From the NCBI GenBank assembly GCA_029204225.1, contig CM055095.1, positions 42,866,223 to 42,930,222 on the forward strand: DNA of 64,000 nucleotides, read 5' to 3'. This document shows positions 7,231-59,174 of this stretch, one piece after another. This DNA comes from Diphasiastrum complanatum (lineage: Eukaryota; Streptophyta; Lycopodiopsida; Lycopodiales; Lycopodiaceae). Both the position numbers and the translations under genes were made by a program. The notes under the pieces are model-generated. The model was not told where the DNA came from and did not search any database. It was given only the letters and a program-made list of their open reading frames with translations. Every line of letters begins with the position of its first letter. Position 1 is the stretch's first letter.

Positions 7231-8830
7231 TCATCCCTTAAAGACTAGCTAACTTTAACTCTGGAGAGTTTTTCCCTAACCTCCTCAAACTTATCTTTAC
7301 ATAAGGGTTTGTTGTGAATATGTGATCTGCTAGATGTTCTTCACACCTACAATGTCAAACATTAATATCTTTACTTAGAAGTCTCTCATAAATGAAGTGA
7401 TAACACACTTCGGTGTGTTTCGTACAACCATGGTAAACATAAATTCTTGTTAGTAGGATTCCAGTTTGACTATCCAAATGATATTTTGTCAAATACACAA
7501 CATGGTTCCAATTGGTGTCTTATCATGTAGGGGATCCACCAATATTTCGAAAATATTTAATTATCCTTTGCTTCCACAAAACATGATGCTTGATTGCTTT
7601 GTATGAATCTAGACATCAATGCATACATTGTTTTAAATGTATCAAGAGCTTTCTTCTCCCTTTTATATCTTCATATACCTTTGTCCTTCTTTGATATAGT
7701 TAAAACTATCTCCATGTCATCTGCAAGCTTCTTGTATCACTTAGGGCCCTTGTGACTAGGAAATATACCTCTAGAAGAGTTTGTATGCGATGGAATATCC
7801 TTTTTGTTTCCTTTTCACAAATCACTACTTTTTTTTATTATAGTAGACCTATATGTTGGTCTTGTCACATTCTACATCCCTTCATAGTGGAGTGGTATCT
7901 TCATTATCAATTCAACTTGACTCGTTAGGATCCTCCATTAAGGGCAATTGACTCACCTTGTTATTCTATGTGGATTGATTTTCACCACTTTCAACATCAT
8001 CATACTCATGCATCTCATGATAAATCATGTCCCGAGCATTATAGTGCACCCTTGCCTTTGTATCATAGCATTTGTATACTTTGACCTTGTCATCACACCT
8101 AAAAATATGCATTTTATTGATTGTGTATCCAATTTATTTCTAATCTGGTCAAATATGTGTATTTATGCCCTACAACCAAACACTCTAATTTTGTATGGTT
8201 TTTATTGGTCCACACGAATATGTAAGCACAAGTTCATAAATTTTCTTTACACATCCTACACCCTTTTTGAACTTCTCTTGACGTTTTTTGCCATAGATTC
8301 AAAATTTAAGTAGCCTATTCATCAATGCCCCATATGATTTTATAGCATCAAAGACCATGTCAACCTACATTGCCCAACTACAAATGCATAAAAACTATAA
8401 ACTTCATAGCTTGTTTCTTAAAATCCATCAAAAACAACCCTAAATTGATGATCCATGTCCTTAACAAGACATTTATCTTTGTGAAATTACACCTTCATGG
8501 TTTGATTTGTAATCACACAAAGTGACAGTAATTTTTCCTTTAAGCCTGATACATAATTTGCATTGTCAATATGGCTTATTTTGCCAATAAATAACTGGAC
8601 TAATACTATACCTATTCCACAAATCTAACATTCCCCTACATTAGGTTGTGCAAACTTGTTGCCATTTTCAAGAGGGCTAAATTGGCTAAACCACTATTTA
8701 CTTCTAGTCATATGTCTCATGGCACCCGAATCAATGTACCATCTACAATTATCATTGTTGTATGATATTAGTGTTAATATGAACATGTGTGGTTGATCAT
8801 TGTAGTGGGTATTTTCTCATTAGAGAAAAT
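7231..8830 (-). mobile_element. Copia pol relic with internal deletion
   Basis: Read on the minus strand the order is protease, integrase end, RNase H end, LTR. The protease active site is seen as CRWYIDSGAMRHMTRSK (about 8750-8700), with the DSG triad intact. The integrase tail and its linker give DQIRNKLDTQSIKCIFLGV (about 8155-8095). Just before the LTR lies HLADHIFTTNP, matching the RNase H C-terminal QLADIFTKP motif. Only about 0.7 kb separates the integrase tail from the RNase H end, so the reverse transcriptase is essentially deleted. Stops are frequent. The same deleted form occurs at 30.9-32.2 kb (opposite strand) and 56.0-57.6 kb, so the deletion predates the copies. Confidence 0.8.
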
Positions 8831-8834
8831 ATGG

Positions 8835-9225
8835 GCCCAAAGAGGGCCCTATTAGAAAATGTCACGTAGGAGAGAGAAAAGATACCAATAAAGTGATTAA
8901 AATATCATTTTCTAACTTCTTTATGCATCTGCCCACACTATTTTCCATGTAGATGAATGCTCCTTATTTTAGTCACATCAAACTTCACTGGTGCTTAACC
9001 ACAATTAAAGTATAATCTTGATAATGCTGAAATATTCCCTCCCAATAGTTGGGAACACTCAAAAATTTGAATTAGGAGTGACATTTTAGAAACATAGCCT
9101 ACGCCATCTCTATCTCCAGGGTAGCGCCATCTCTATCTCCAAGGTCAAACAAGTGTTTAGCGCCATCTCCAGCTTTGTTATTGTCATTGTTTTGTTTGTT
9201 ACTATACTATTGTACTGATGACAAA
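8835..9225. other. Junction segment between Copia relic and gene A
   Basis: There is no coding signal. The stretch has short palindromes at its start (TTTTCTCATTAGAGAAAAT and GGGCCCAAAGAGGGCCC) and a near-repeated phrase, GCGCCATCTCTATCTCC, around 9095-9165. The same sequence, inverted, occurs at about 30480-30870, but the third copy of the block (57.57 kb) diverges just after its start. Confidence 0.5.
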
Positions 9226-10750
9226 GCTTTATCATCTTCATGTGGAGCTGTCACCAGAATATGCTCCGCTCAGGACAATAAATTCAAAGCAACCCAAATT
9301 GTCAACTTCTGATATGATCCGATACAGGGAGGAAAAGTTAAAGCATGTAGATTTATGGTCATAAAAAACATTGTATCCTATTGAACCATATCACTCATTG
9401 CTACATCCGGATTTTCACTCGGTGTGTTAATTAATAATCTATATTATGGATTTCATTTGGGAAATCTTCTCTATGCTGATATTATGCGGCTAAATCATGT
9501 TTTCGTTTTATGTTATAGGTGATGAAAGAAGACCATGACATTCTCTCATGGATATTTAATAGAACGTCATATCCTGCAACCATAAAAAATCACATGGAGT
9601 GAGTTCCACTCAATATTCCTAGAATTGGCACTTTCAAGATATAATGGCATTTAGCAGGAGATCTAAAGACATTAGAATGTATGTTCAATGTATCCCATGG
9701 TGCTAACGCTAAACACCCTTGTTTGTATTGCATGAAGACAACAAAAGACACGACAAGGAGTGTAGAAATATCAAGAGATCGAGAAGATCCTAATTGGAAA
9801 CCCGTACTACCGATTCCTCTTCAAATATTCGTATTTGTACATTGCATGCAGAGGTGCGTATAATAGAAAAAATAATATATCTTCACATCTTGTTTGCATG
9901 GAATTCCGAGCCAAAGGCAGCTGTGAAGGAAGCTATTTCCAGATTAGAGGATATGTTGTCTAAAGTAGGCTTACATAAAGGCCACGTTAAAATAAAAAAA
10001 TACGAAATATTCCATGCAAGTTGAGCATTGGAGGATCCAAAGCTCGTAGATTTTTATCAAATTATTCTGGCAAACAATCTTAGATTCAATACTCAGTTTG
10101 GAAAGAGATAATAGCTGCAACTCAAGATTTCGAAGAAGAAGGTCCTACTCATGTACACAAAGTAAAAGTTTGGAGAAAATTAGACAATATGGTGGAATAC
10201 TTGAGAAAAGATAAATTTTCAAATATTGATGTACATATAATATAGAAAACACCTAGTGAATTTGTGGATGCAGTTTGAAGTGCATGGGGTTTAGATCATA
10301 TAACTCATTATATGGTAAGATTTTGATGCTGCACTAGTGTAGACAAACATGTGCAATTAATTTAGATACTTTTGGTAATAATTTGTATTTTGTTTTTATG
10401 ACATGCAACACATATTACGACATCATTCGACATTCTTTGCAAGAAATTGTGAAAGTCTTAGCATATAGTCATCGCAAGGAGTGAAAAAATCTCATTGGCA
10501 AGCAAGAGCGACATTTCATAAAAGTACAGAACATGGTGGGACTAGCATAAAGAATAGTTATTATTGCAACTTTTCCAATGGTTCCATAGAAGAATCCAAA
10601 TTCGTCATAATACAAAATCGACGGATTATAAAAAAATTCAAAAAGCATGCAAATTTATACAAGCCAATAGGCAATAGACACACAGGGAGATTTTGTATAT
10701 TAAATGAAAATTTTACAAAGTTCGGTTATCCAATATCTACTATGCTTTGA
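9225..10750 (+). pseudogene. Gene A, copy 1: unclassified transposase-like gene
   Basis: I do not know a named family for this gene. It is spliced and broken. An upstream part reads LYHLHVELSPEYAPLRT and KLSTSDMIRYREEKLKHVDL (about 9225-9360). The next exon, after an AG near 9520, has MKEDHDILSWIFN, then AGDLKTLECMFNVSHGANAK and HPCLYCMK (about 9650-9745). A third part ends DAV.SAWGLDHITHYM with a GTAAGATT donor near 10315. The next part holds KSHWQARATFHKSTEHGGTS (about 10490-10550). The blocks GDLKxL...CLxCMK and E-K-SHW...HGG recall DDE-type transposases of the KDZ/CMC kind, with GD as a possible second Asp and the E before KSHW as a possible Glu, but this is inference. Stops occur near 9600 and 10280. 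Partner gene B converges on it. Confidence 0.55.
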
Positions 10751-12150
10751 CACTTTCTCTAATAAAAGTTGCAATTTAGAATCATACAACAATTTCCTTC
10801 TCTCGTAGGAATCCAAAAGCTCTTAGTGTTCATGCTTACTCAGATCAACAGAGACTGCATACATGGCAAAATGAGATTATCTGAGCATGGAATTCACTGG
10901 ACCATATCCTAAAATCTTAAGTGCAACATCTTTCTTAATAAAGATTATTTTATGCGCCCTATTAAAATTATGTCCTCCAAGAAAATGAGAAAGTGCCTTG
11001 ATTGCCATAATCATTGTATCACCATCTTGATGAAACTTTGAATGAACACTTATCTCATTATTCTTGAAGAACTAAGGATAATCCCTAGTCCATGATCTCT
11101 TGAAAATTCTCCAACAAAGGATTTTTGCCCCACCATCAAGCAAAATCATCAAGAAAAATTGTTTCCTGAAATGAAAAAATGCAAAGTAAACTCCAGTATA
11201 AAATCTAACATTACGGATCTACTAGTACAAGATAAGATACAAAACTTACGCATTCAGCTTTGTCTTCCTCGATTACTGCCTCTCCATCAATATTATGTCC
11301 ACCTTTCGATGTCAATAAGGTTGGCGAATAAATAGTTGGTTTTTAAAAACCAAGCTGACTTTGAAACCTGAAGAACTCCTCATCAGAAGGAAGATCATTT
11401 TCTTTTTGGCACATTTCCTCCACATCCATTTTCAAACAATTTTTTCCTGAATAAAACTCATCCTTATTTACATCGTCAACACTAGGGAGAAGGTCATCAG
11501 CATCATAATCAATTATATCTGAAAATTCATGAAGCTCATTGCCCAAAATGCAAAGAGTCTTGGCCTCTGTGACATAAAAAAGATCGGATATATCCGATAG
11601 TGTCAAAAAAAAATTATTATCTATATTATAAGTAGGCAATGTGATAAGAAATTGATTAGAAGAAAAAAGAGTATTAGTAATTCTAGGGCCTATAAACGAT
11701 GCCATATTTTGTGCACGATCAAAACCTGTACAATCATCTAAACTAACGCTCATATCAATAAATAAAAAACTTAATATCTATAGTCTTCGACTTTTCAGAT
11801 TTTGTACCGCTGGAAGAAACAGCTTCAGAAGTAAAAAGGCTAGCCTCCGAATCATCAAAAATAATTAACAAAAGAAAAAAAAAAATGTAGACTGAAACTC
11901 TACAAATCTACATTTTTTATTGTGAATTTGACAATCATCTACAGACTTGAAATCATTATGTAACTTGGTGAACATTCTATCAAACTTACCTTTATAGCTA
12001 TGCTTGTCGAGTGTCACCAGGTCCTGATAATGAATCATGTTCTTATTACGAGATCTGAACAAGGGAGTACTGAGCAGAGACTTAAATCTGAGATAAATCT
12101 CTGAAAAAGCTTCCACACCAGGACACTCAGTAATAGAAGGAAGAACAAAA
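10748..12150 (-). pseudogene. Gene B, copy 1: unidentified multi-exon gene
   Basis: This minus-strand gene is convergent with gene A. A first visible exon (about 12135-11990) reads CPGVEAFSEIYLRFKSLL and ends at a GTAAG donor. The second (about 11850-11250) contains SSSGTKSEKSKTID, FLITLPTYNIDN, LTLSDISDLFYVTEAKTLC and an acidic YDADDLLPSVDDVNKDEF; it ends EDKAEC with a GTAAG donor. The third starts after CAG near 11166 with ETIFLDDFA, and its end reads DSKLQL near 10775. Joining exons two and three keeps the frame in this copy. I recognise no domain. Stops and frameshifts occur, for example after FQSQLGF at 11343. The same gene recurs at 48.1-49.15 kb and, truncated, at 59.07-59.17 kb. Confidence 0.5.
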
Positions 12151-12364
12151 AGAAAAGGAGAAAAAAGAGATTTGAAATACACTAATACCAAATTCATGAA
12201 AAAAAGATAGCAAACTAGAATCGAAATTAGACATTTTAACAAAAAAAATATGGAAAGAAAGATTTTAAATACTGGACTCAGGCGCAAAATGCAAGTTCAA
12301 ACAAAACTACAACGCCCTATGCGCTTGAAAGAGATATCAAAAAACCGAGTATCAGATCTGAGTG

Positions 12365-12485
12365 CGCTCGAGGTCGGCGTGAGGTGAGGTGAGGTGAGTC
12401 ATGGCAACACGGTCCCAACACAAGCTTGAGGTCGGCAAGAAGTGAGTTGAGTCTCATGCTCCAAATCGGCGTGAGGTGAGGGTAT
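12365..12485 (+). repeat. Short degenerate repeat with GAGGTCGGCGTGAGGTGAG
   Basis: The phrase GAGGTCGGCGTGAGGTGAG and variants recur about three times, with GTGAG slippage. This is a simple degenerate minisatellite between gene B and the palindrome array. Confidence 0.5.
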
Positions 12486-12749
12486 GGGAAAAAAAAATAT
12501 TTAAGGACCGTAGTCCAAGCATAACTCACATCATCTACGAATTCATAAGCATACATGTTGCCAGAGCTATCACTATGACAAAGTCGCAGATTTCTATAGT
12601 ATATTGCATATATTCTCGCTCACACATTTTTTGACGGTAAGATTACTGTCATTTTCTAACTTTGTTCTATGCTTAGCATTGGTACTAAATTGTTGCATTA
12701 CTAAACATTCAGGTTTTAGCTAGTGTTCATCTTCTTAAAACTTGGGTGA

Positions 12750-13162
12750 CATATGCTCAGCATAGGTGGCTACACGAGTCCTCTCCTCTAACCTATGTTG
12801 AGCATAGGTTGTGTTCGGGTCCTAAGTAACAACCTATGCTCAACATAGGAAGCCGACGGGATATTTCTATTCTTACCACGTTTCGACCTATGCTGAGCAT
12901 AGGTTGTATCTCTAGTCCTCTTCTAACCTATGCTCAGCATAGGTCGTCACTCGCATGCTCGAGTCCCACCTATGCTCAACATAGGATGTCTTCGCATGCT
13001 GCTTGCTAACCTATGCTTAGCATAGGTTAGAAGAGAACTAGAGATGCAACCTATGCTCAACATAGGTCGATAGGTGATAAGAATAGACACATCACGCTGA
13101 CATCTTATGCTGAGCATAGGTTGTTACTCAGGACCTCAACACAACCCATGCTCAACATAGGT
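12750..13162. repeat. Palindrome array 1: ten 19-bp units, palindromic overall
   Basis: Ten copies of the dyad ACCTATGCTNAGCATAGGT lie at about 12750, 12791, 12832, 12886, 12926, 12968, 13009, 13049, 13103 and 13144. The spacing is mostly 40-42 bp with two steps of 54 bp. From the second unit on, the array is itself a large imperfect inverted repeat centred near 12977, on the sixth unit. For example ATCTCTAGTCCTCTTCTAACC on the left pairs with its complement at about 13022-13045. It lies between gene B and the methyltransferase-like gene. A GTAAGA donor-like site at 12636 and an AG at 13362 suggest that it may sit in a first intron or the 5' leader of that gene. Its function is unknown. It could form hairpins or bind a dimeric protein. 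Confidence 0.9.
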
Positions 13163-13362
13163 CGTTACTCATATTTTTCTCGTTTTACAAGGCTTAGTCT
13201 AAGAAAAGTGAAATTTTTGAGATGTTTTATTAAGAAAATGTGTTGAATTTTTAGTTATGATTTTTAGAGATTTTCCACAAAAACTGCTTGTCTATTTAAA
13301 GTTTTTGGTATTTTCATTAAAGTAATGTTTGAAATTTTCCTAAAAAATATTTTTCTCTATAG

Positions 13363-15832
13363 ATTCTCAATTGTCTTTGATAATCTTCGAAATGTTGAGG
13401 ATTTTTTTAAAAATTTCGTGTAAACCTCAAGCTATTCCACTGAAAGATAAGAAAAAATTCATGTACTACTTCACCAGAGGGGTCAACAACACAAAGCTGT
13501 TTGAGCTTTTATTCATTTAGCTGAGAAGCTTGGCATGGGAGACTCACAGTTCAAAATTCAAGGAAGATTGCTTGCTGATCAACCAGATGAGGATGAGGAA
13601 GATTTGATGTTGCCAGGATGAGGCCATCAAAGCCTATTTTGATAAAGCTCTAGTTACTTTGGTGTGTAATTATAAAACATATTTTTATTCATGTATGTTT
13701 ACATTTGTTCCATACTTAGCAATGGTTACTAAATATAAAATTCTATCAACTTTTAAGTAAAAAGCTTTTTTTTGTAAATTGAGCTATCATGTGTTGTGAG
13801 CATAGTCAGTACAAATGCCTTTACTCATTATATTTTAAACTCATTTTTTGTTTCTGTCCAGAGCATGAAGCAATGCTTAAAAATGGCTCTAGTTGCTATT
13901 GTTGAGAGGAAAGATCCGGTCTACTCATTACGGAGTTCGAAAGGTGTATCTACTGAAACTCACAAGCCAACCTCTGAAGACGTTGGGGACAAATGAGAAG
14001 CTTTTCAAATAAAAGGCCAACCTGATCAAGGTGCCTCAAAGTCAAAGAAAAAAGTTGTCAGTACTCAAACTTTGAAGCCAATCCCTACAAAAATGGAAAT
14101 ATCAAAGTGGAAGAACATGCAAGGGATTAGCTCTATAGAGCTAATAATAAGTGTTCTTTCTAGAGCTACTGATGGTCAACTTTCTTTGGTAGAAATGGGG
14201 AAAGAATTTGAAAGGTAATAGTCATAATCTAAATATTTATTTTCATGTTACTTTTTGTGATAAAGTGATTTTCATGATTTTGTTGGATTTTTAACAATTA
14301 TACTTTTTAAATGCAGGCATAAATTATTTATGAAAGCTCAAGAAGCCCTTGTGACAGGGTTAAATTGTCAAGATTTCGAAGAGTGCCAAAGGCTTTATCC
14401 TCTAAGTAGCCGAAATGAATATGAGTCCATTTCTGATTTTGTTTAGAGACATGGTATTTATTTCACCCACCCTTAGCATAGGTGCTTATTAATTGTTTCT
14501 TTTTTATATTTTATGTCTCCTATGTTGAGCATAGTTTTTTCTTTATTTAATTATATATTCTTGATACTGTAAGTCTCCTATTCTCTTTTTTATTTTATGT
14601 CTCCCATGCTAAGCATAGCTTTTCTTTTTTCAGTCTCCCAAAGATAAGCAAAACAAAGTCCTTCTAGAGCAATTCAAGAGACATATTCTGAAGGCAAGAG
14701 CAAAAAAAATGGACAGAGAGAGATGAGCATGGGGTGAGACCATTGCGGAGGAGGATCCTTTAGAGACCTACCTTCCCAAAAGTGTTGATGATCAACCATG
14801 CTTTTACTCAGTTGAGGAGGCCGATTGCAGAGAAATTTCATTTTTTTTTAAAAAAGGCCTTATACACTCTGCATTGCCGATATACCATATGGATTTCGGA
14901 TGAAGAAATCATTAAATGATGATTTCCCCTTCAAAATTATTGAAATCTATAGTTTCATGCAGGGTTTTCTCGAAGTCGCAACTTCTCCAATTTGGAGAGG
15001 TGTTATTTTTCATTCTTCTTGGCAGACAGCTTTAGTATAAAAAGCTCTACTAACTTTTTGTAATGTAGAAATAGGAAATATTGTGTGGTAAGTTTTTAAG
15101 TTCCTGAATTATTGATTTGTATTTTAATTCATAATTATATTTTAATTTTTTTTATTTTAAAGTTAAAATTATTTATTTATTTAACTTGTAATGTTCCATG
15201 TCAGGACTTGGGAGGAGCACACTTTGCAGTGAAATAGAATACATAACCATCGGTTATTATTCTTTGGATGTCAAGCGTTCAATGCTTCATTACAATACTT
15301 TCGAATTGACAAGTTTAGAAAACTTGTTCTAGTATCCAACCGTGACCAAGAAACTAAAGAATCCAATGATGGGTTCCATGGCTTGTCCCTACCAAAAGTC
15401 ACAACAATAATTAATCATTTAATTGATATTTTTTCTTACCCGGCTGATTCAATTTTGGTTTTATTTAGTGGTAGTGGTACTACAAGCGCATGTGCTGTTC
15501 AGAAAGACAGACATGTTGTTGTAGTAGATTTAGATTCTGATTTAGTGTTTTTGTAAAAATGAGAATGAAATCTCTTTCAATTTTGCCAAATGAACAATGA
15601 GGTGGGAAAGAGTTTAGATAGCAAAGATTCAGTAATTCCCTTGTCCAAGGAACCTCAGCCTCCTGCTAGCAGAAAAGTAAGTGACATAGGAGAATTTGCT
15701 GATGTCTTGGTTCAAGATTATAATGTGGTTATGGTAGTCGAGGAAACTGTAGAAGAGGTGCCACTTGAAACTACAGTGGCTACTCAAGAAAAAAAAAAAG
15801 ATGTAAATGACCTCGATGATTTTTGGAAATAA
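13363..15832 (+). pseudogene. N4/N6 DNA methyltransferase-like gene, copy 1
   Basis: A spliced gene with beta-class DNA methyltransferase motifs. Exons by splice sites and frame: 13363-13661 (ATG 13392, YYFTRGVNNTKLFEL), 13862-14214, 14317-14453, 14634-15087, and 15205 onward. The fourth exon has motif IV as ADIPYGF (14876-14896, DPPY-like), then WRGVIFHSSWQTALV and VEIGNIVW. The fifth has NHRLLFFG (15245-15268), HGLSLPKVTTIINHLIDIFS, motif I as FSGSGTT (15464-15484) and DRHVVVVDLDSD. The 15087/15205 splice restores the frame exactly. This class methylates the exocyclic amino group of adenine or cytosine in DNA. An acidic tail follows in the same frame to 15832 (VNDLDDFWK), past three stops (15554-15570). 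Other stops lie at 13519, 13994 and 15229, with frameshifts in exons one and three. DIPY in place of DPPY is a further deviation. It is not active as it stands, but the family call is good. Confidence 0.8.
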
Positions 15833-15834
15833 AA

Positions 15835-16940
15835 AATTTTCTTTTGTTTCAAAAAATAATAGCATTTATATTTTTTGATGTATTGTGTTTTGAAATCTTT
15901 TTGATTGATTTAATGTTCTTAAATTTGTTCTTTAATGATTTAAAATTAAGAATTTAAAATAATTTAAAAATTTTAATATTGATAATCATTACCAAAACTA
16001 AAATTGTAACGATTTGTCAAGTTTATCATATTTTAATTTTGATAGTGTTTTTATATTATTTATTGTAAAAAAAATTTTGTTAGAAATTTAAACAAATGAA
16101 AAGATTTTTTTTTAGGGTGATTTAAATAATTTTTTCAGGGTGATTTAAAGTAATTTGATTTGCGTTTATTCAATGTTTAAATATTCAATGAACTTACATA
16201 GGTATGAGTAAAGATTCTAAAAAATTTCAAACTTTAAAAAATACTGATTAATATTTTTATTATAGTTTAAAAAATATTTTTTTCGATACAAAAATTGTAA
16301 TTTAAAAAACTTTTAAAATTCCACAAAAAAAACACTATATCTTTTGTTTTAAATAAGCAAAAAATATTTTGTAGTTATTTTAGTGGTTGTGTCTCTAATG
16401 ATTTTATTTTGAATAGTATTATTATTTCACATAAGCTAATTTTAAGCTATTTATGAAAATCTATTGACCAAATTTTGGAGCTTGAATTATTTTTTTGCAA
16501 AATACAACATTTTTTTAACATTACAATATATTTATTTGAAGCATTTTAAATTTGGATACTTTTTAAAAAAAATTAAAAAATTTGAAAAAAAATGGGTTTC
16601 CATGTTATTTCTCTTTTTTTTGGTCATCATGTTCAATGTACATACATTAATGGTACATTGATTTTCTCATTTCAACCATCAAACATATTCATTTTCAATA
16701 TTTTTGGGTCTCTTCGAGCCGTGATGAGCTGGAAGAGCAGGCCTCAACAACCAATAGCATTTTCACATGCTATTCGACGAAACAGTAATATATTTAAAAA
16801 GTTTTTATTTTATCTATATTTGGGGAATTCTACGTTACATAGAACCTTGATATCAAAGTTTCAATTGGTCCAAATGGCTACGAAAATAAAATAAAAAATA
16901 AAAAAACATCTGTTTCAAGGGCCCTCGTCGGCCTCTAAGT
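15835..16940. other. Very AT-rich non-coding stretch
   Basis: This is the 3' side of the methyltransferase-like gene, made of A/T runs. One short phrase, near 16715-16790, reads MSWKSRPQQPIAFSHAIRR and could be a stray exon, but nothing supports it further. No other feature was recognised. Confidence 0.4.
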
Positions 16941-16954
16941 TTCTCTAATGATCC

Positions 16955-18068: not shown

Positions 18069-18402
18069 GGACCTATGCTCAGCATAGGTCGAGAGAGGAC
18101 CTATGCTCAACATAAGTCGAGAGTGGACCTATGCTGGTTGAGCATAGGTCCAGTGGGCACTTATGCTCAGCATAGGTCGATGGAGGACTTATGTTGAGGA
18201 TGGGTCGAGGGAGGATTTATGCTGAGCATAGGTCGAGTGAGCACTTATGCTCAACATAGGTCAAGAGAGGACCTATGTTAAGCATAGGTCGAGGAAGAAC
18301 TTATGATGAGCATAGGCTGGGAGAGAAGTTATGTTGAGCATAGGTCTAGTGACCACTTATGCTGAGCATAAGTCTAGTGAGCACTTACGTTGAGCAACGA
18401 AG
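18069..18402. repeat. Palindrome array 2: about twelve units, 29-bp period
   Basis: The same ACCTATGCTNAGCATAGGT dyad as array 1 is repeated about twelve times with a period near 28-33 bp and a fairly constant short spacer (CGAGAGAGG-type). Many units carry one change in an arm (ACTTATG for ACCTATG), and one unit near 18127 has a 4-base insertion in its centre. It is the mirror partner of array 3 in the large inverted repeat. Confidence 0.9.
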
Positions 18403-26570: not shown

Positions 26571-28190
26571 AAACTGATGATAATTCACTCAAGGAGGCAA
26601 GAACGCATGTACACCTAATTAGATCAGGTTTTACTAGAAGCAAACAAGAAACATCACTCAAGAAATTAATCCCTATTTTGGAATCTTAAACTTTCCATGC
26701 AACGATAGATGACCTGCTTACTAAAGCATTTCTTAATGTGATGCTTAACGTAGGTTTTATTGTTGATTGCTTCAAAAGTGAAGAGAAGCCACTTCAATTT
26801 TTCTTATGAATGAGGCTTTCCTCAACGCACGCGCCTGCTAGAGAGAAAGAGAAGCAAAAGGTTTTCACCTATGCTCAGCATAGGTGAATCTTTTTGCTTT
26901 GCAAAGAATCTTTTTGATACAAACTACCCAAATAAATGTGATTTCAGACCTTTGCTTTAAGACTTGCCCTTGAATAGGCCCCTTACGGACACAATTAAAG
27001 AATGTAGAGAGAATTATTGTCCTTTAGACCTTGGAGGTTTAATTCTTGGAGGGAGGATCTATAAATTAGAACTCAAAATGGGCCTTCATTTCTATTGTTG
27101 ACAACTGGCTGCCTTCGTTGCTCAACATAAGTCATCACTAGACTTATTAGCATAAGTGGTCACTAGACCTATGCTACTCAGCATAACTTCTGTCCCGGCC
27201 TATGCTAAGCATAAGTCCTCCCTCGACCTATGTTGAGCATAAGTGCTCACTAGACCTATGCTCAGCATAGGTCCTCTCTCGACCTATGCTCAACATAGGT
27301 CCTCTCTCGACCTATGCTCAACATAGGTCCTCTCTCGACCTATGTTGAGCATAAGTGCTCTCTCGACCTATGCTCATCATAAATCCTCCCTCGACCTATG
27401 CTCAACATGGGTCCTCCCTCAACCTATGCTCAGCATAGGTCTTGTCTCGACCTATGATGATCATAGGTCCTCATCGCATAGGTCCTCGACTATGCTTATC
27501 TTTTTTATTTTACGATTCTTAAATTTTAAGATTTTTTTAATTTTCTAATATTTTTAAAATTTTAGAGTTTTAGAATCTTTTAAATGTTAAAATATTAACA
27601 TTAAACTTTTAAATTTATATCAAAATCTTTCAAATTGCACTTTGAGAATAAAGTCCAAAAAATATGCTTTTTAAAATTTTAAATTCACCTAATTTAGCAA
27701 TTATTAGTCATAATAATAGATTGGACACAATTATTATTTGTATTATTTTGGCGATTTGAATGTAAAATTTTTAAAATATTTTGCGTCACTTAGTCCAAAT
27801 TTCAAATATTTGCAAAATGCAGCATCTTACAAATAATTCATTAATCTTTAAATTTAAGATTCAAAATTTACATGAATTACTAAAAAATTGTAACAACTTA
27901 AAAAAATGGGTCCTCCACCATTTCCTGTTTCAAAAGATTTTGTGTTCATTGCATTTATGTTATCCTCTTCATAAATTTTTGTTATTAGACTAAAATATTG
28001 AGCTTTATTTTAATATTTTTTAAATTGCTAATTTAATAATTAAAACTTTTTTTGATTTTAGGTATGGGCCCTTGTCGATAAATAAAAGTGGAAAAATTTT
28101 CAAATAAAAGGCCAACCTGCTCAGGGTGCCTCGAAGGCAAAAAAGAATGATGCCGTCACTCAAACTCTGAAGCCCATCTCTATAGAAATG
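26570..28190. repeat. Right arm of the large inverted repeat
   Basis: Reverse complement of about 17030-18990. It shares the reverse complement of the TAGGTGTACATGCGTTCTTG edge, the palindrome array, the AT-rich core and the methyltransferase exon that carries QGASKAKK. About 7.6 kb separates the two arms. The match resumes at 29090-29175 after about 0.9 kb not present in the left arm. Confidence 0.85.
27115..27492. repeat. Palindrome array 3: about thirteen units, 29-bp period
   Basis: The same dyad as arrays 1 and 2, read here as GACCTATGCTCAACATAGGTC with a CCTCTCTC-type spacer. At least three units in a row (about 27253-27330) are nearly identical, suggesting recent slippage or unequal exchange. 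It is the inverted partner of array 2. Confidence 0.9.
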
Positions 28191-29086: not shown

Positions 29087-30230
29087 TCATGGGAATGAAT
29101 CTCTTTGTGACATGTTAGAATACTCTTCATCTATTGACGCTTTGCATGTGCTAGGGTCTAGGGTTTTGAGAACAACTATCAACTTGTTATTGACATTCTC
29201 ATTTGTAATACCATACAAATTTATGATGAATGTTAGTAGCTGATTAATATCAATAAATAGATTCTTGGAATTGTTATATGCTAGACATTCTCCTTTTGAG
29301 CAATAAACTTCATTGATATGAGACGGACTACCAACTATTGTCTGCATACCTCGGTCGTGGAATTAGAAACTTTTTAATACTTACTTGTGCAAATGTCTCC
29401 TGTATCATCTTAAACATTGTTGCATATGCTTCTCTACTGAAGCTAGAAAATCACATGCCCTCTCAACCAATGTAGTGTCTAATATTTTTCCAACTTCATT
29501 CATGATGTTATCAGTAACTGAAGCCTTAATCTTTTTTATTTTGTTATTGTTTAACATTGATTTCATACATTTAGAAGTCGAGATAGAACCTAGTGAGTTT
29601 CCAATGGAAATCTCATCGGCCAAATGGTCTTCAGCAACCAATGTTGATATGCATTACAAACATAATGTTCGTGAAAATATCAATAGAAATTAGGACACTC
29701 ATAGTATTCACAGCAACATAATAAACAAATCAGTAGAAAGTTGAAATTAATAAATAACACAACTAGTGATTATGTTTGAATCAAAAAGCTCAAGCAATAT
29801 CCAATTCCAAATAAGCTATAACTTACTTGAATGCACAGATTCATCTTTTTCTATAACCTCCTCTGGATGATAGATCACATATATCCTTGGTTACTAGTCT
29901 TTTCCTCTTATTGCTTCTGACCTTTTTGTTGAGCACATTCATATCTTTAACAAGAGACAAATATGAGGTACACATAGATTGAAATGCAATTTTTATCTCA
30001 TCATTACTAGTTGTGAAATGATGCAAAGAAGATTTCAACCTTTGGATCTCCTCCTTGAACATCTCATTTTCTTCTAAGCAAGTTTTCAACTTTGTAGATT
30101 TTTCTTCACACTCCTTTGATATTTTCCTTGATTCCTCTTCCAAATAATGTATTTTTTGCATTGAATGTGCATTCCCATAGAGCATCAAATTCTCACAGTA
30201 ACCCAAAAGGCCATTTTTGGCATGACACAT
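29087..30230 (-). pseudogene. Gene D: coiled-coil protein gene, unidentified
   Basis: Three minus-strand pieces look like exons of one gene. The first (30230-29830) is strongly heptad-like and charged: HYLEEESRKISKECEEKSTK, EENEMFKEEIQRLKSSLH, then basic NKKVRSNKRKRL, a likely nuclear signal; it ends near a GTAAGT. The second (about 29640-29385) has SVTDNIMNEVGKILDTTLVE and DFLASVEKHMQQCL, ending at GTAAGT. The third, after GCAG near 29341, reads TIVGSPSHINEVYCSKGECL and INQLLTFIINLYGITNENV, with a natural stop at 29087. No family was recognised. Its C-terminus recurs in the left inverted-repeat arm. Upstream (30.24-30.48 kb) lies the 5' part of gene A in the same direction, so D may be fused to or inserted in A. 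Confidence 0.5.
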
Positions 30231-30239
30231 ATAGATTAA

Positions 30240-30480
30240 TTATTTACTCACCGAATGAAAATCTGGATGTTGCAATGAATATGGATCAATAGGATACAAT
30301 GTTCATGATGACCATAAATCTACATGCTTTTAACTTTTTTCTCCCTGTATTGGATCATATCAGAAGTTGACAATTTGGGTTGCTTTGAATTTCTTGTCCT
30401 AAACAGAGCATATTCTGGTGACAGATCCACATGAAGATGATAAAGCTTTGTCATCAATACAGTAGTATAGTAACAAACAA
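30240..30480 (-). pseudogene. Gene A 5' segment, inverted copy
   Basis: This matches about 9225-9425 in reverse orientation. The minus strand reads LYHLHVDLSPEYALFRTRNS, then KLSTSDMIQYREKKVKSM. It breaks off after the HPDFHS-equivalent and runs into gene D. The remaining gene A exons are not present here. Confidence 0.65.
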
Positions 30481-30879
30481 CACAATGACAATAACAAAGC
30501 TGGAGATGGCGCTAAACACTTGTTCGACATTGGAAATAGAGATGGCACTACCCTGGAGATAGAGATGGCATAGGCTTTGTTTCTGAAATGTCACTCCTAA
30601 TTCAAAATTTTGAGTGTTCCCAACTATTGGGAGGGAATTTCAGCATTTTAAGAATTATACTTTAATTGTGGTTAAGCACTAGTGAAGTTTGATGTGACTA
30701 AAATAAGGTGCATTCATTTACATGTAAAGTAGTGCGGGCAGATGCGTAAAGAAGTTAGAAAAGATATTGTAATTACTTTATTGTTATTTTTCTCTCTCCT
30801 ACATGGCATTTCTATTAGAGCCCTCTTTGGGCCCATATTTTCTCTAATGAGAAAATACTCGCTACAATGATCAACCACA

Positions 30880-34129: not shown

Positions 34130-34540
34130 GGCTTGTTCAGCTTCTCTCCTTAGTTACAGTCAACAAATTATTCTGAAACAAGTTAATAACCATCTAATTC
34201 CTAGCCGGTCTCCGCAAAATTGATGAGCTGTCTTAAGGGATGAATCAAGAAACTCACCTGCAAGGCCCTATACTGTAGGCAGTCCCAGGAATTTTCAGTG
34301 ACAAGCTAATTCCATTTTTCTCATACAAGCTAAAGTAATGCCTCAAGTGTTCTGCTTGTGGGGACGACTTCATGCTGATAAGGAGAGCCAAAATTTTATT
34401 GTGATGCATATACAAAATTGAACGCATGTTTGAATGACCTAACCTTTGATGCCATAAATCTTGTAAGTCCTTGTGAAATTTGGAATGGACATGAAATGGT
34501 TTGATGACAATCTATGTCAAGGATTTTTCACCGAGTTTAA
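34130..34540. other. Upstream flank of PEBP relic, nothing recognised
   Basis: No clear promoter element, exon or repeat border was seen. Confidence 0.35.
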
Positions 34541-41111: not shown

Positions 41112-41960
41112 TCTGATATGCTTTGGCATTTCAGATTAGGCCATTTGAATTTCAAAAGTATTCACCAAAGTGTCAACTCAGAAACTAGTACAAGATCTAC
41201 CTGTTGTTGACAAGCCAACTTCTCCATGTGAAAGTTGTTTAACCAACAAGTATGCAAGAAGCTCGTTCTTTTCTAACTTAGTTCATACTTCCAAGGGCCT
41301 ACTCGGTCTTATACATAGCGATATATGTGGCCTGATGCGGACTGCTTCTAACGGGGGAGCTCTATACCTCCTAAACTTCATCGATGACTTCTCTCAAAGG
41401 ACTGCAACCTACTTTTTGAAGAACAAATCAGAGGCATTCAAGTTCTTCACACAGGTCAAGGCGTTAAATCAAACTCAAAGGAAGACTAAAATTCTACGCA
41501 CAGATGGAGGGGGAGAATTTATCTCCACAAAATTTAAAGAGTTTTGTAAGGCCAACAAAATACATCAATAATTCACAACAAGATACTCACCTCAGTCCAA
41601 TGGTGTAGTTGAATGGAAGAATCAGACACTTATCGAAAGTGCCAAGAGCATGTTGGCCCATGCCTCTCTTCCGAAGAAATTTTGGGTAGAAGCTGTTACT
41701 ACAGCCGCCTACCTACAAAATCGATCCATCACCAAAGCCTTGAATGGCAAGACACCTTATGAGGTGTGGAAAAGACCAAAATCATCTCTCAAGAACATTA
41801 GAGTGTTTGGTTGCATCGCTTATGCATAAAGCTGGATGACAAAAGCATAAAGTCTATTTTTGTTGGCTACTCCCCATATCACAAGGCATACAAGCTCTAT
41901 AGTCTCGAAACAAAAAAATCCTTCACGAGTTGATGCTCAGCCTCAAATCCATTCAATAAT
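41112..41960 (+). pseudogene. Copia integrase relic
   Basis: The gag-pre-integrase zinc region appears as MLWHFRLGHLNFKSIHQ (about 41117-41165), then, in another frame, PCESCLTNKYARSSF. The integrase core follows with GLIHSDICGLM (first Asp), NFIDDFSQRTATYFLKNKSE (second Asp), and ILRTDGGGEFISTKFKEFC with a stop at 41569. Past it, in the same frame, come YSPQSNGVVEWKNQTL (catalytic Glu of the VxExxN motif), FWVEAVTTAAYLQNR, GKTPYEVWKRPKSS and RVFGCIAYA. All catalytic residues D, D and E can be seen. Only a few stops and frameshifts interrupt it, so it is among the youngest coding relics here. Reverse transcriptase is missing after about 41950. Confidence 0.92.
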
Positions 41961-47544: not shown

Positions 47545-48015
47545 CATGATCAATCCAAGATTCAATACTCAGTTTGGAAAGAGATTATAGCTGCAACTCA
47601 AGATTTCGAAGAAGAAGGTTCTACCCGTATAACAAAGTAGAAGTTTGGAAAAAATTAGAGAACATGGTGAAATGCTTGAGAAAAGATAAATTTTCAATTA
47701 CTGATGTACAAATGATACAGAAAACAACTAGTGAATTTGTGGATGCAGTTCAAAGTGCATGGGGTGTAGATCATATATCACATTATATGGTAAGATTTTG
47801 ATGTTACACTACTATTGACAACTTTGCAAGAAACAGTGGAAGTCTTAGCATATGGTCATCGCAAGGAATGGAAAAATCTCATTGGCAAGCAAGAGCGGCA
47901 TTTCATAAAAGTACACAACATGGAGGGACTAGCACAAAGAACGCTATATACTGCAACTTTTCCAATGGTTTTATAAAAGAATCCAAATTCGTCATACAAA
48001 ATGATGGATTATAAA
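47545..48015 (+). pseudogene. Gene A, copy 2 (3' part)
   Basis: Matches about 10080-10660. It holds WKEIIAATQDFEEEGST, KKLENMVKCLRKDKFSITD and TTSEFVDAVQSAWGVDHISH, with the GTAAGATT donor at 47790. The following intron is shortened by deletion. It then continues with ARNSGSLSIWSSQGMEKSHW and QARAAFHKSTQHGG. This copy keeps FVDAVQSAW where copies 1 and 3 have a stop, showing what the ancestral frame was. Confidence 0.65.
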
Positions 48016-48119
48016 AAATTTGAAAATGCATGCAAATTTATACAAGCCAATAGGCAATAGACACAAAATGAGATTTTGTATATTAAATGAAAATTTTTAC
48101 AAAAAGTACAATTGACCAA

Positions 48120-49150
48120 AATCTACTCTACTTCCGATACTTTCTCTAATGAAAGTTGCAACTTTGAATCATGCAACAATTTTCTTCTTTCGTATGGATC
48201 CAAGAGCTCGTAGTTTTCAGGCTTACTTTGATCAACGTAGGCAGCATACAATGCAAAATGAGATGATCCGAGCATGGAATCCACTGGTCCATATCCTAAA
48301 ATTTTAAGTGCAATAGTTTTCTTTACAAAAATTGTTCTATGCACCTTAGTAAAATTATGTCCTCCAGGAAAATGAGACAGTGCCTTGATTGCCACAATCA
48401 TTGTCTCACCGTGTTGTTGAAACTTTGAATGGGCAACACTTATCTCATTATTCTTTAAGAACTTCGGATTATGCCCCAGTGCATGATCTCTTGAAAATTC
48501 TCCAGCAGCAGATCTCTGCCCTCGACAAATTGCAAAGTCATCAAGGAAAATTGTTTCTTAAAATAAAAGAAATTTAAGGTAAGCTTCAGTGTATAATCTG
48601 ACATAACGAATATACTAGTACATAATAAGATACAAAACTTACGCATTTGGCTTTGTCTTCCTTGATTACTGTCTGTCCATCAATATTATGTCCACCTTTC
48701 GATGTCAATACAGTTGGTAAATAGACAACTGGTTTTGGAAAACCAAGCTGACTTTGAATTTTAAGAAACTCCTCTTCAAAAGCTAGATCATCTTCTTTAT
48801 TACGCATTTCCTCCACAACCATTTTCAAATAATCTTTTCCTGAATAAAACTCATCATTATTTACATCGTCAGCACCAGGGAGAAGATCATCAGCATCATA
48901 ACCGATTATATCTGAAAATTCATGAAGCTCTTTGCTCCAAATACAAAGAGTCACGACCTCTGTGAAATAAAAAAGATCCAATATATCTGATAGTGTCAAA
49001 AAAGTAATATTATCTACATTATAAGTAGGCAATGTGATAAGAGATTTATGAGAAAGAGAAATGATGTTGGTAGTTATAGGGCCAATCGTATCAATAAAAA
49101 AAGTTTCTATATTTACAGTCTTCAACTTTTCAGATTTTGTACCACTAGAA
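48120..49150 (-). pseudogene. Gene B, copy 2
   Basis: Second exon (49150-48642): SSSGTKSEKLKTVNIETFFI, SLITLPTYNVDN, LTLSDILDLFYFTEVVTLC, GYDADDLLPGADDVNNDEF and KGGHNIDGQTVIKEDKAKC with a GTAAG donor. Third exon (about 48557-48123): AICRGQRSAAGEFSRDHALG, MIVAIKALSHFPGGHNFTKV, KILGYGPVDSMLGSSHFALY and ENYELLDPYERRKLLHDSKL. The acceptor has lost one G relative to copy 1, which breaks the frame. Upstream of SSSGTKSEK the two copies diverge abruptly at about 49150, where the head-to-head H3-like gene starts, so the open frame reaching 49296 is antisense to that gene and not part of B. Confidence 0.6.
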
Positions 49151-49170
49151 GAATGATTATGAGAATGATG

Positions 49171-50252
49171 GCTAGGACGAGATCCACTACCCATGCCAGT
49201 ACCTCTGTACAGCCATCCCATGCCCATGTTCCCTCTGGTACTGGCCGTAGACGTGGAAGAAGGCAAATCTGGCTGAAAGAGAAAAGAAGACTCCAAAGAT
49301 CAATTGAATTGTTGATCCCTAGAGCTCCTTTCAACCGATTTGTTAGGATTGCCACCCTGTCACTTGGGCTTGATGTTCGTTTTGCCATGACAGCCATGCA
49401 TGCCTTACAGGGTGCTTCTTTATGTCCTAGTTTTTTGAGGATTCATGTCTTTTGGCCATGCATGGTAAGCATGTTACCATCATGCCTAAAGATTTTCTTA
49501 TTCTCAAACGACTTTGGGAACGTTATTCAAATCTTCATGTAGATAAAACCAGCACCTCTAGAGACTTGCCTCTGAATAGAACTAACTTGCCAACTACCTC
49601 AAGGAGGAAAAAGAAGCAGGCTGTCCCAAAGAAAGCTAGATCTCGAAGGCCAGCTGCTTCCCTTCTTCCTAGAGTTATCCCTGGCAAGAGACCCCACATT
49701 TTTCTGAGCTCTGAATCAGATGCTGGAGAATTTGATTCAGACCCAGAATCATCCTCTCCTCCTCTTGTTATTCGTGTAGTTCTTCATAAGGTTTCTTCAC
49801 CAAAAGTGATGATAACCCAAGAGGAGCTTAATAAAATAACTGAAAAATCTATAAATATTGTGTCTACATCACTTTCTCTCCCTGTACATAATCTTTTTGT
49901 TAGAATTCCATACGATCCTAATCAGGTTTATTTTGATTTTGACCATTATAACCAATACGAGGCCTACTTAGCTAATAAAGTTGATCAGCTCGGCAATTAT
50001 TTTGATTTCTTTCTTCTAGATTCAAATAGAAGCTATAGATTAGGTCCCAAATTTTGTGATGTTATTGTAGAAGCTAGCAGAAACTTTTTGCAACATAGTA
50101 TTAGTTCTGATTCTCAGGGTGTAGTTTTTGTTGTCAGCCCATTTTTTATGGGAGCGGTGAAGGCAAAAGACGTCAATTTTGAAAGGGCTGTATATTTCAT
50201 CGAATGTTCTCCAATGGCAAAATGTTATTTGATTCCATATGAGAATAAATAA
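49171..50252 (+). pseudogene. Histone H3-like protein with long C-terminal extension, one frameshift
   Basis: ATG 49171 opens MARTRSTTHAS, like the H3 tail start MARTKQT. A basic linker (RRRGRRQIWLKEKRR) leads to RSIELLIPRAPFNRFVR, matching the H3 stretch STELLIRKLPFQRLVR. Then come LDVRFAMTAMHALQGAS (H3: DLRFQSSAVMALQEAS) and, after a one-base frameshift near 49430, FFEDSCLLAMHGKHVTIMP with KDF (H3: [21 protein letters not shown]). The whole histone fold is present but very divergent. Instead of ending there, the frame continues about 230 codons: a basic stretch (RRKKKQAVPKKARSRR), an acidic patch, then a globular-looking part with YDPNQVYFDFDHYNQYEAYL and FDFFLLDSNRSYRLGPKF, ending at TAA 50252. 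H3 normally ends about 15 residues after MPKD. It could be a viral or transposon histone fusion, or a gene with a lost splice site. Confidence 0.8.
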
Positions 50253-50259
50253 GGATTAC

Positions 50260-51125
50260 TAGTTTGTTTTTGTTGCTTTAATTTGGATGATTACTCCTGT
50301 TCAAATGGATTCTAGTTTTTATTTTGATTATTGAAATCTGCATTGGAGCCTGAACATTCTTTGTGTAAAGATGAATAAGGAGGGAGTATCAAATTTTCTA
50401 CGTGTAAAAGTAAACTCAGCTAATAATACACATAGAGAATTTGATTCTCTACTTTTTGATGTCATTCGGGAAATATCGACAACGACGACCTCAATTGGAG
50501 AGATAACCATTAAATCTCTCAAGGTATATACAATTTATCTCTGATATGCATGTATTTTTTTTAGTTTTAAATCTATCATCATAGCATAAATAAATTTGCT
50601 GTCATAATCTTACTAATTTTTGTTTTATATATGTAGTGTGTACAACAAAGGAACGCTTTTAGTTGTGCATGGTTTGTCCTGTACAATAACAAGCTCTTTT
50701 TTGAGTGGTATCATCTACAAGTCGATGTAGATATTAAAAAGGTAATATTTTGTTCATTTGTAGTTCCTTTCATTCTGATTCTTATTTCTTTACTATCATT
50801 GTTTGTAGTTTGTTGATTCACGTGTTTTGTGATGACAGTTCACAATTGAGTCGTACAGTCCCGACGATGTATATAGGTTTCGGCAAGAAATGATCAGAAC
50901 TTATGTACAGAATGGTGCAAGCGTTACGCCTGAAATCGAGAGCACGAAAAGCAAGCTGCTCTTGCCTTAATAGCCTTTCAGGTTGCTCAAGATGTAGATA
51001 TTATTATATATGATCAAAAAGGCATAGAAGTCTTTCAAAGGAAGGCGAAATTATAGGAGAGAGGCATGTTGCCTTATCGGTTCCTAATATTGATATTGAA
51101 AATATAGAAAAACTTATTGAATAGG
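50260..51125 (+). pseudogene. Spliced gene with Ulp1/adenain-like cysteine motif
   Basis: Exons: about 50370-50523 (FLRVKVNSANNTHREFDSLL, then IGEITIKSLK before GTATAT), 50638-50741 (CVQQRNAFSCAWFVLYNNKL and FFEWYHLQVD, before GTAATA), and 50839 onward (FTIESYSPDDVYRFRQEMIR). After a frameshift comes KQAALALIAFQVAQDVDIII, and the gene ends near 51123 (IENIEKLIE, stop). The segment QQRNAFSCAWFVLY resembles the cysteine box of C48 (Ulp1) and C5 (adenain) proteases, QxNxxDCGxFV, with Asp-Cys-Gly altered to Ser-Cys-Ala. The catalytic His would have to lie in the H3-like gene's C-terminal part, so the two may be one gene. No His-Trp motif could be seen, so the protease call is tentative. Confidence 0.45.
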
Positions 51126-52262
51126 AATTCATTTGTAAATAGAGATACATAATAAAAAAAGATACAATCTTACATGTAAACAACCTGTTTATGGGATTTA
51201 TATTAATATCAATATATATTCTTATAATCAAGTTGTGTCCATAGTGTAATACTAGAATGCAATTTTCTAGATTGATAAAAAGACATGATGATTGACATGT
51301 ATTTGCTAATAGTAAATCTTCCATAAGTTGTTTCGCAAATATCTCCGCATTTGATCTCGAGCTCATGTCTTTTACATATCTGCATAAACCTAATACAAAG
51401 TGAGTTACAATTAGTATAGAGATTTTATGAGAAAGTTTTGATAGAAACTATTCATAAAGAATCGAGTATTTATAGTTACTTACGAGTTTACCATTGAAAA
51501 TGAATCTGAAGTCTAAAAGTATATCATCTTGTAGGAGCAATAGTTCCCGCCGGATGTAATTTAGACTCCAATCATCTTCGACTTCAACACATGTCAAAAC
51601 TGTATTATTGTATATGATTTCAAATTTTTTTCATTCTAAATGTCCATTGGCTTCCAAGTCTTGATCGAGTGGCACCCATTTACCTTTATTTTTTTTCCAT
51701 TTTTGATAATGGAAGCATATGCTCAACGTTTGTTTTTCAATTTGATAACGAAAGCACATGGAAGACATTTTAATTCTGTATTCTATTTCTCCATCTGATC
51801 TTTTGTCCCAGCGTTCATCCATAAGGTCAGATAATAAACTATTTGATAAATTTTTGCATACAAACATCGTTGGGGTTTTGTGTACATTGACACTGAAAAA
51901 GAAATCCACAAATATATTCAGAGAAATAAACCAACTCAATCTAACTGTTTTTGATCTCGTGCTTATCTTTAATGAATTTTTTACATCATTATATAGCTTG
52001 TAACGAAATGATTCTGAAACTGCAACATTTGGAGCAACCCATTCATCACTCCAAAACTAGGTAAGGGAATTGCAAATATTTGTCCAGAACCTCCTTTTGT
52101 ATCAGGAATGTACATTGATTCATAAAAAAAAAATCCCACTATCAACTAGATGTTTTGCAGTTCTACCTCTATATTGCAGCTGTCCAATATTAGTGTGAAT
52201 AACATCTAACACACATGCTAGAGATCCACTGGGCTCCCATTCATTTATGTTGATGGATATAA
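51004..52262 (-). pseudogene. Gene C: unidentified minus-strand gene
   Basis: Downstream-to-upstream pieces on the minus strand are as follows. The first is EWEPSGSLACVLDVIHTNIG and QLQYRGRTAKHLVDSG (about 52242-52135). The next is ESMYIPDTKGGSGQIFAIP (about 52120-52062). After a frameshift comes DEWVAPNVAVSESFRYKLYN, then KTPTMFVCKNLSNSLLSDLM, MCFRYQIEKQTLSICFHYQK and KWVPLDQDLEANGHLE (to 51631). In the same region a segment reads CVEVEDDWSLNYIRRELLLL with FRFIFNGKLVS (51600-51483), similar in feel to a ubiquitin-like fold start. A last piece, DMSSRSNAEIFAKQLMEDLL, lies at 51370-51300. It is convergent with the protease-like gene. No family was identified. Confidence 0.4.
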
Positions 52263-57575: not shown

Positions 57576-57579
57576 TGAA

Positions 57580-59040
57580 ATTATAAGAGGACAAAAAATG
57601 GAGAGAGTCAGTCTTACGATCATGAATGGAATACTTCCAAATTCAGAAGACTCAGAAAGCCTCAACTTCAGTGTTTAATCATATAAGGATATCAGGTGGT
57701 TGGCAACATTTCAGGTATAGTAGTTATTTCACATAATTAATAGGGATAATCATTTTAATATGGATTTCATTCGAAAAATCTTCTCTATCTTAATATTATG
57801 CGGCTAAATCACTTTTTTGTTTTCTCTTTTAGGTGATGAAAGAAGACCATGACATTCTCTCATGGATATTTAATAGAATGTCATATCTTGCAACCATAAT
57901 AAATCACATGGAGGGAGTTCCACTCAATATTCCTAAAATTGGCACTTTCAATATAGAATGGCATTTAGCAGGAGACCTAAAGACATTAAAATGTATGTTC
58001 AATGTATCCCATGGTGCTAACTCTAAACACCCTTGTTTGTATTGCATGAAGACAACAAAAGACACGACAAGGAGTGTAGAAATATCAAGATATCGAGAAG
58101 ATCCTAATTGGAAACCCGTACTACCGATTCCTCTTCAAATATTCGTATTTGTACATTGCATGCAGAGGTGCGTATAATAGAAAAAATAATATATCTTCAC
58201 ATCTTGTTTGCATGGGATTCCGAGCCAGAGGTAGCTACGAAGGAAGCTATTTCCAAGTTAGAGGATATGTTGTCTAAAGTAGGCTTACATAAAGGCCACG
58301 TTAAAATAAAAAAAGACAACAAGCTATCAGGAAAAACAAAAAATATTCCATGCAAGTCGAGCATTGGAGGAACCCAAGCTCGTAAATTTTTATCGAATTA
58401 TTCTGGCAAACAATCTAAGATTTAATACTTGGTTTGGAAAGAGATAATAGCTGCAACTCAAGATTTTGAAGAAGAAGGTTCTACTCGTGTACACAAAGTA
58501 GAAGTTTGGAGAAAATTAGACAACATGGTGGAATACTTGAAGAAAGATAAATTTTCAAATATTGATGTACAAATGATATAGAAAACAACTAGTAAATTTG
58601 TAGATGTAGTTTGAGGTGCATGGGGTTTAGATCATATAACTCATTATATGATGGTAAGATTTTGATGCTGCACTAGTGTAGACAAATATGTGCAATTAAT
58701 TTAGGTACTTTTGATACTGATTTGTATTTTTTTTCTGTGACATGCAGCACATATTACAACATCATTCGACATTCTTTGCAAGAAATAGTGGAAGTCTTGG
58801 CATATGGTCATCGCAAGAAATGGAAAAATCCCATTGGCAAGCAAGAGCAGCATTTCATAAAAGTACACAACATGGTGGGACTAGCACAAAAAACAACTAT
58901 ATATTGCAACTTTTCCAATGATTTTATAGAAGAATTCAAATTCGTCATAATACAAAATTTATAAAAATTAAAAAAGCATGCAAATTTATACAGACCATTA
59001 GGCAATAGACACACAGAGAGATTTTGTGTATCAAATGAAA
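57580..59040 (+). pseudogene. Gene A, copy 3 (most complete)
   Basis: A first part (about 57590-57710) reads RTKNGESVLRS and EYFQIQKTQKASTSVFNHIR; it is not seen in copy 1. The next exon (after AG 57833) is open to 58177: MKEDHDILSWIFNRMSYLAT, GVPLNIPKIGTFNIEWHLAG, DLKTLKCMFNVSHGANSKHP and CLYCMKTTKDTTR. An overlapping frame reads VRIIEKIIYLHILFAWDSEP and SKLEDMLSKVGLHKGHVKIK. After an intron ending at CAG 58747 comes HILQHHSTFFARNSGSLGIW, SSQEMEKSHWQARAAFHKST and QHGGTSTKNNYILQLFQ. The pattern GDLKxL...CLxCMK...WSxQExEKSHW...HGG...QL is conserved in all copies and should define the family. Function is unknown; a DDE-type transposase is my best guess. Confidence 0.6.
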
Positions 59041-59065
59041 ATTTTACAAAGTTCGGTTATCCAAT

Positions 59066-59172
59066 ATCTACTCTGCTTTCGACACTTTCTCTAATGAAAG
59101 TTGCAATTTAGAATCATGCAACAATTTTCTTCTCTCGTAAGGATCCAAAAGCTCATAGTTTTCATGCTTACT
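59066..59172 (-). pseudogene. Gene B, copy 3 (C-terminal end only)
   Basis: Encodes HENYELLDPYERRKLLHDSK with LQLSLEKVSKAE, the end of gene B, convergent with gene A copy 3. It is cut off at about 59172 by unrelated sequence that leads into a Copia relic. Confidence 0.65.
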
Positions 59173-59174
59173 CA

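Follow-up and report, generated by a model that had tools for sequence, protein, structure and literature searches.

An abundant transposon-like element of Diphasiastrum complanatum appears to encode a divergent histone H3 with a predicted Ulp1/SENP-like extension

Core histones are host genes. Here, a stretch of 64,000 nucleotides of Diphasiastrum complanatum DNA (the window; positions 42,866,223 to 42,930,222 of contig CM055095.1, assembly GCA_029204225.1) was found to contain a divergent histone H3 reading that continues into a long extension, and it is nearly certain that this H3 fusion is encoded by an abundant DNA-transposon-like element. Profile comparisons indicate that the extension, together with exons downstream of it, very probably encodes a divergent Ulp1/SENP-like (C48) domain. 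The anatomy of the gene and of the element is well supported. The reading that we favor, with modest confidence, is that of a transposon-encoded, chromatin-tethered SUMO protease that would act against silencing. The results suggest that a mobile element may interfere with the very chromatin by which it would be silenced.

In the window, the H3-like reading starts at the ATG at 49168 (+) and spans the MART tail to the C-terminal helix. The H3 frame alone (49168-49437) matched Pfam Histone at 38.4 bits (1.7e-9 and 4e-9; cut-off, 26.4), and both frames joined by read-through matched at 59.9 bits (3.8e-16; same cut-off). The top PDB match of the read-through H3 was H3 (7e-17), and CENP-A/H3 was matched as well. 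The line-up with H3 from the MART tail to the C-terminal helix, proposed in a first-pass annotation of this DNA, was thus borne out, and, judged from these matches, the H3 similarity of the window copy is real. Open stretches of 273, 237, and 182 codons at the locus are above chance, the maximum in 40 simulated 64-kb sequences being 174. The same annotation had described an uninterrupted frame with an extension of about 230 codons. The long coding continuation, to 50252, stands, but the frame breaks at a T run at approximately 49432-49437, between 49168-49437 and 49431-50252 (MHGKHVTIMPKDF plus extension). Since some other copies hold both parts in one frame, the family does carry the fusion, and the break is damage to the window copy, in which alpha-2 is shortened and positions 4 and 116 are R and H. 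The gene extends past the end noted earlier, into exons 2 to 4 (Table 1). A second H3 copy was not found within the window. The window copy is a dead, decayed member of an abundant repeat family.

Table 1. Positions of the H3 fusion gene and of element copies and fragments in the window
Feature	Position	Strand	Basis
H3 tail, alpha-N, alpha-1, and start of alpha-2	49168..49437	+	Pfam Histone; PDB CENP-A/H3
H3 fold from the end of alpha-2 through alpha-C; frame differs from that of the preceding part	49431..49541	+	FEDSCLLAMHGKHVTIMPKDF aligned to H3 104-130
Linker: basic stretch SRRKKKQAVPKKARSRR, acidic/serine stretch, and conserved stretch without an assigned family	49542..50018	+	Translation
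Final part of exon 1, with the beginning of the predicted divergent Ulp1/SENP-like (C48) domain	50019..50249	+	Start of the alignment between the family profile and SENP2
Degenerate intron 1; donor GTAAGG altered in the window copy	50250..50334	+	Comparison of copies
Exon 2, His region (HWSLNIL)	50335..50523	+	Copy comparison, alignment
Exon 3, Gln/Cys region QQRNAFSCAWFVLYN	50637..50741	+	Copy comparison, alignment; downstream ORF alone, Pfam C48 E 0.011
Exon 4 FTIESYSPDDVYRFRQE, from 50839 onward; reading broken after ~50950	50839..50949	+	Copy comparison
Element copy W1; both termini, inverted, 25/32 bases; no H3 gene found in W1	8818..16950	+	
Element fragment W2, with left terminus	29166..30849	-	
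Element fragment W3, carrying the H3 gene; both ends missing	47551..52145 (end approximate)	+	
Element fragment W4, transposase-like gene region	57576..59174	+	
Element ORFs on the minus strand, without a known family	48126..49155	-	
Second element ORF on the minus strand, without a known family	51634..52056	-	

The repeat family was delineated by searching an assembly of 1.74 Gb in 5176 contigs. The extension gave at least 142 scored matches (142/142, with 7532 first-look candidates) and the H3 part at least 150 (150/150, with 4921 first-look candidates), so that the further genomic copies that the first-pass annotation proposed to look for are present. Among the matches listed, those of the extension were 67 to 85% identical to the window copy, that copy excluded, and those of the extension and the H3 part together reached all of C1-C24. 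The H3 part was unbroken in 6 of the 33 sequences searched (L004 and L005 are near-duplicates), and 4 of those 6, at C577, C4:40.43 Mb, C18:12.57 Mb, and C10:22.78 Mb, have stop-free single frames of 393 to 427 codons. With these copy numbers, inverted termini, and junctions to unrelated flanks, the earlier proposal of a histone carried by a mobile element is supported.

Comparison of 11 stretches, one from the window and ten from elsewhere and each at most 20 kb long, revealed a shared unit of approximately 8 kb with inverted termini. Of the 11, 3 show the left end, CATTAGAGAAAATATGGGCCC, and 6 show the right end, ...TTTCTCTAATG; in the C15 copy the two ends are separated by 8.1 kb. Further left-end reads had unrelated flanks in six of six cases, starting with CATTAG in five and TATTAG in one. 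W1 and W2 have a common flank because the surrounding repeat was itself duplicated. A target-site duplication was not seen in the three two-ended copies (W1, C15, and C4), and the right ends of two more elements, sought for such duplications, were missed at the predicted positions. Clusters of right-terminus matches were located at C1:48.6-50.2 Mb, C14:13.7-14.4 Mb, and C22:17.1-17.8 Mb. Besides the H3 gene, the genes seen in the element were one on the plus strand that has a CxxC motif and ORFs on the minus strand. In the window, the first of the minus-strand ORF regions adjoins the H3 gene because W3 is without 1.29 kb that precedes this gene in the C15 copy. A candidate transposase gene of the element, which carries the motif GDLKTLxCMFNVSHGANxKHPCLYC and matches no Pfam transposase, was seen at 57833-58422 and 9593-10021 (+); six pieces of the left gene from decayed copies had no match to Pfam transposases, including MULE. 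Between the W1 termini, at 15233-15553 (+), lies a DNA N6/N4 methylase-like fragment (Pfam N6_N4_Mtase, 1.4e-5; 25.6 bits, just below the cut-off of 26.7).

Next, the identity of the extension was examined. The first-pass annotation had called it an unknown domain, and taken alone it had no relative in Pfam or NCBIfam (49578-50249), the PDB, or the protein database; PDB matches of a query with the histone end plus the extension fell in the histone end. The separate profile searches that had been proposed for the two parts therefore succeeded for the histone part and gave nothing for the extension alone, and the proposed structure prediction of the extension, from one sequence, was unusable (pLDDT, 34.4). 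The description as an unknown domain gives way once the later exons are included. The GTAAGG donor, lost from the window copy, closes exon 1 in 15 of 23 copies, and the joined exons of the window copy reached 22.0 bits against Peptidase_C48 (cut-off, 20.7). Eight rows were aligned (7 of 20 spliced family 1 copies and one family 2 copy). Seven of these eight members matched Pfam C48 at E values of ≤1 (best, 3.8e-5), one member scoring 15.6 bits, which is below the cut-off. Searched against the PDB, a profile of the eight gave five matches at E values of ≤10, all five of them Ulp1/SENP, Ulp1 and SENP2 included (best, 0.0054). Against the C48 reading counts a single joined composite protein, which gave two chance matches in the PDB in this less sensitive search. 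Relatives were not found in the protein database; this absence means little, because the H3 query gave only five candidates there, which suggests that plant histones are hardly present in that database.

The putative domain resembles Ulp1/SENP (C48) proteases in its His region, its Gln-x5-Cys spacing, and its profile match, and differs from them in carrying an N-terminal histone. His, Gln, and Cys are invariant in the eight aligned rows, with 6 residues from Gln to Cys; His-Trp is changed in the single dead copies L002, L012, L013, and L019. The eighth member, from the second H3 group, is 31% identical to the first row and keeps all three residues. The DCG of Ulp1 is replaced by SCA, NCA, or NCG, and the third catalytic acid has no assignable position; for these two reasons the predicted protease may be inactive.

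To gain insight into selection on the gene, dN/dS was calculated for 12 group 1 copies (63 pairs for the tail and 65 for other regions; L041 and L042 are near-duplicates). Median values, which dead copies raise, were 0.37 for the H3 core, 0.57 for the tail, and 0.44 for the extension, and those in two shifted frames were 0.60 and 0.83. Pairwise K2P distances among the 12 H3 parts ranged from 0.005 to 0.219 (median, 0.138). Seven of the 11 in-frame stops in the aligned H3 parts occur where other copies mostly have CAG, which would fit decay by cytosine deamination.

A genome search with a CENH3 query gave 150 rows, of which 13 scored 87 bits and 137 scored 69 to 77 bits. The 2 of the 13 that were read are canonical host H3 genes, and the 18 of the 137 that were read encode divergent H3s that fall into four additional groups (8, 5, 4, and 1 copies), giving five H3 groups in one genome among the rows read. 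Over the fold, the element-borne H3s are 43 to 57% identical to host H3. In a 20-row, midpoint-rooted tree, branch supports were 98/97 for group 1, 86/92 for group 2, 100/99 for group 3, and 99/98 for groups 4 and 5 together. The element-borne H3s stand apart from H3 plus CENH3 (86/87), and a grouping of them with CENH3 was not seen in this tree, whose CENH3 rows include two long branches and do not themselves form one group. The level of identity and this position agree with the earlier view that the window gene is unlikely to be a host histone. The second group has the same gene layout and protease in the one copy followed, which carries a stop and frame changes, so that the C48-like domain is present in two of the five groups, the two read beyond the H3 part. 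Some rows of groups 3 to 5 have open frames of 300 to 417 codons. For group 3 (L055, L056, L058, L059, and L065), the part that was read shows no start resembling that of H3, and its end is RRLRRER.

Residue conservation was assessed in 23 rows (11 of group 1, including the window copy, and 12 of the 18 others). Of the 20 tails, 19 have K4 and all lack K9. At the H3-H3' contacts, all 23 rows have H113 and D123, and 22 have R116, the exception being the window copy. R63 is changed to P in 22 rows and to S in one, which counts against a nucleosomal explanation. These proteins thus share with core H3 and CENH3 the span from tail to C-terminal helix and the H3-H3' contacts, and are set apart by their low identity, the protease-like fusion, the tail without K9, and their location in a repeat.

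These features can be arranged into a candidate mechanism. The element gene encodes the tail and fold of a divergent H3, a linker with basic and acidic stretches, and a predicted Ulp1/SENP-like domain. The H3 part may pair with H4 and enter nucleosomes, and in that position it would bring a deSUMOylase to chromatin. SUMO supports silencing. Because of this, and because the tail is without K9 and has K4, the protein would counter silencing, namely, that of its own element family. Such an anti-silencing role is possible, though somewhat doubtful. Still more tentatively, we propose a class of transposons that might make its own nucleosomal H3 variants, with K4 and without a methylatable K9, and so bring a SUMO protease into chromatin, with several old lineages in one genome; such elements would be rewriting their own nucleosomes to escape silencing. 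If this were true, H3 lineages that live on transposons, are joined to a SUMO-protease-like domain, and lack the heterochromatin lysine would open the silencing arms race to tests on nucleosomes themselves, and would reveal one way in which eukaryotic genomes gain new H3 variants.

Other readings of the same observations were weighed. The H3 part might have no nucleosomal function and serve as a DNA-binding or dimerizing module, only the Ulp1-like domain being of consequence, as in KIU elements. Its identity with host H3 has fallen to the level given above, and the available text of one review describes Ulp1-carrying plant transposons without a histone (PMC13317346). However, the H3 core shows dN/dS as low as the extension does, and the H3-H3' contact residues are kept across groups, so we consider this reading unlikely. 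With a CENH3-like H3 part, the element or the proteins that it encodes could also be directed to centromeric chromatin, as a form of centromere parasitism. The letters LIPxAPF and AAED and, in groups 4 and 5, also RW and SMLC..RVTLM are what we take to be marks of CENH3. Right-terminus matches bunch, with 30 pairs within 1 Mb versus 0.9 expected (36 places); 22 of the 25 on contigs of known extent lie at 20 to 60% along them; and extension and other-H3 matches bunch approximately three-fold (26 versus 8.3 and 32 versus 9.6), above all 2000 random draws. Left-terminus matches, however, do not bunch (1 pair versus 0.8 expected), extension and other-H3 matches were found in all fifths of chromosomes, and segmental duplication can also give bunching. 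Neither the tree, which does not join these H3s to CENH3, nor loop 1 of group 1, which by eye has the length of that of H3, favors a centromeric role, and we regard it as quite improbable.

That the locus belongs to a host H3/CENH3 gene family, or is a pseudogene of one with a read-through extension, would suit the broken state of the window copy and the group 4 tail, which starts like H3. Copy number, termini, and dispersal contradict this, canonical host H3 genes exist separately, and the tree sets the element-borne H3s apart from host H3 and CENH3. A recent pseudogene with an unrelated read-through extension, which the first-pass annotation had named as the outcome that would speak against it, does not agree with an extension kept with H3 in other copies or with the same protease in a second group; a host origin of this kind is very hard to credit. 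Some large DNA viruses carry histones, and these are likewise histones in a selfish element, which would favor an endogenised virus or virus-like element. No sequence link to the H3s described here was found: no relative came out of three IMG/VR scans (extension, family 2 H3 core, and transposase-like piece), and a Pfam scan of 20 ORFs of the window turned up no viral hallmark. The virus-like element raised as an option in the earlier annotation is therefore dropped as extremely improbable. The chromatin-tethered SUMO protease remains the preferred reading.

Among the closest known systems are plant DNA transposons. In the available text of PMC13317346, Ulp1 genes are described in Arabidopsis KIU/Vandal elements, their function in KIU genes is called unknown, and KIU/Vandal are linked to escape from silencing. 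KIU (Kaonashi) elements, which are Ulp1-carrying non-TIR MULEs, and Vandal elements likewise have a Ulp1-like gene beside other element genes (PMC13317346). The present element, in contrast to KIU, has inverted termini and no MULE transposase match in the pieces scanned, and in contrast to the H3 fusion here, the word "histone" occurs 0 times in the available text of that review (PMC13317346). An anti-silencing activity is described for the VANC proteins of Arabidopsis elements, which strip DNA methylation from members of the family that encodes them (PMC5735166). A transposon-coded H3 or an H3-Ulp1 fusion was not found among the matches listed for titles and starts of abstracts in the open PMC literature.

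Other repeats occur in the window, among them copia and CACTA repeats, which together with the intron-bearing genes suggest that the element is of plant type. A CACTA-type transposase remnant (Transposase_21, 1.8e-17) lies at 1022-1252 (-), an integrase core remnant (5.6e-12) at 41149-41568 (+), and a GAG-pre-integrase remnant (2.3e-4) at 34257-34511 (-). At 27124-27500 and 18141-18396 lie a 28-base tandem repeat and, inverted, a stretch related to it.
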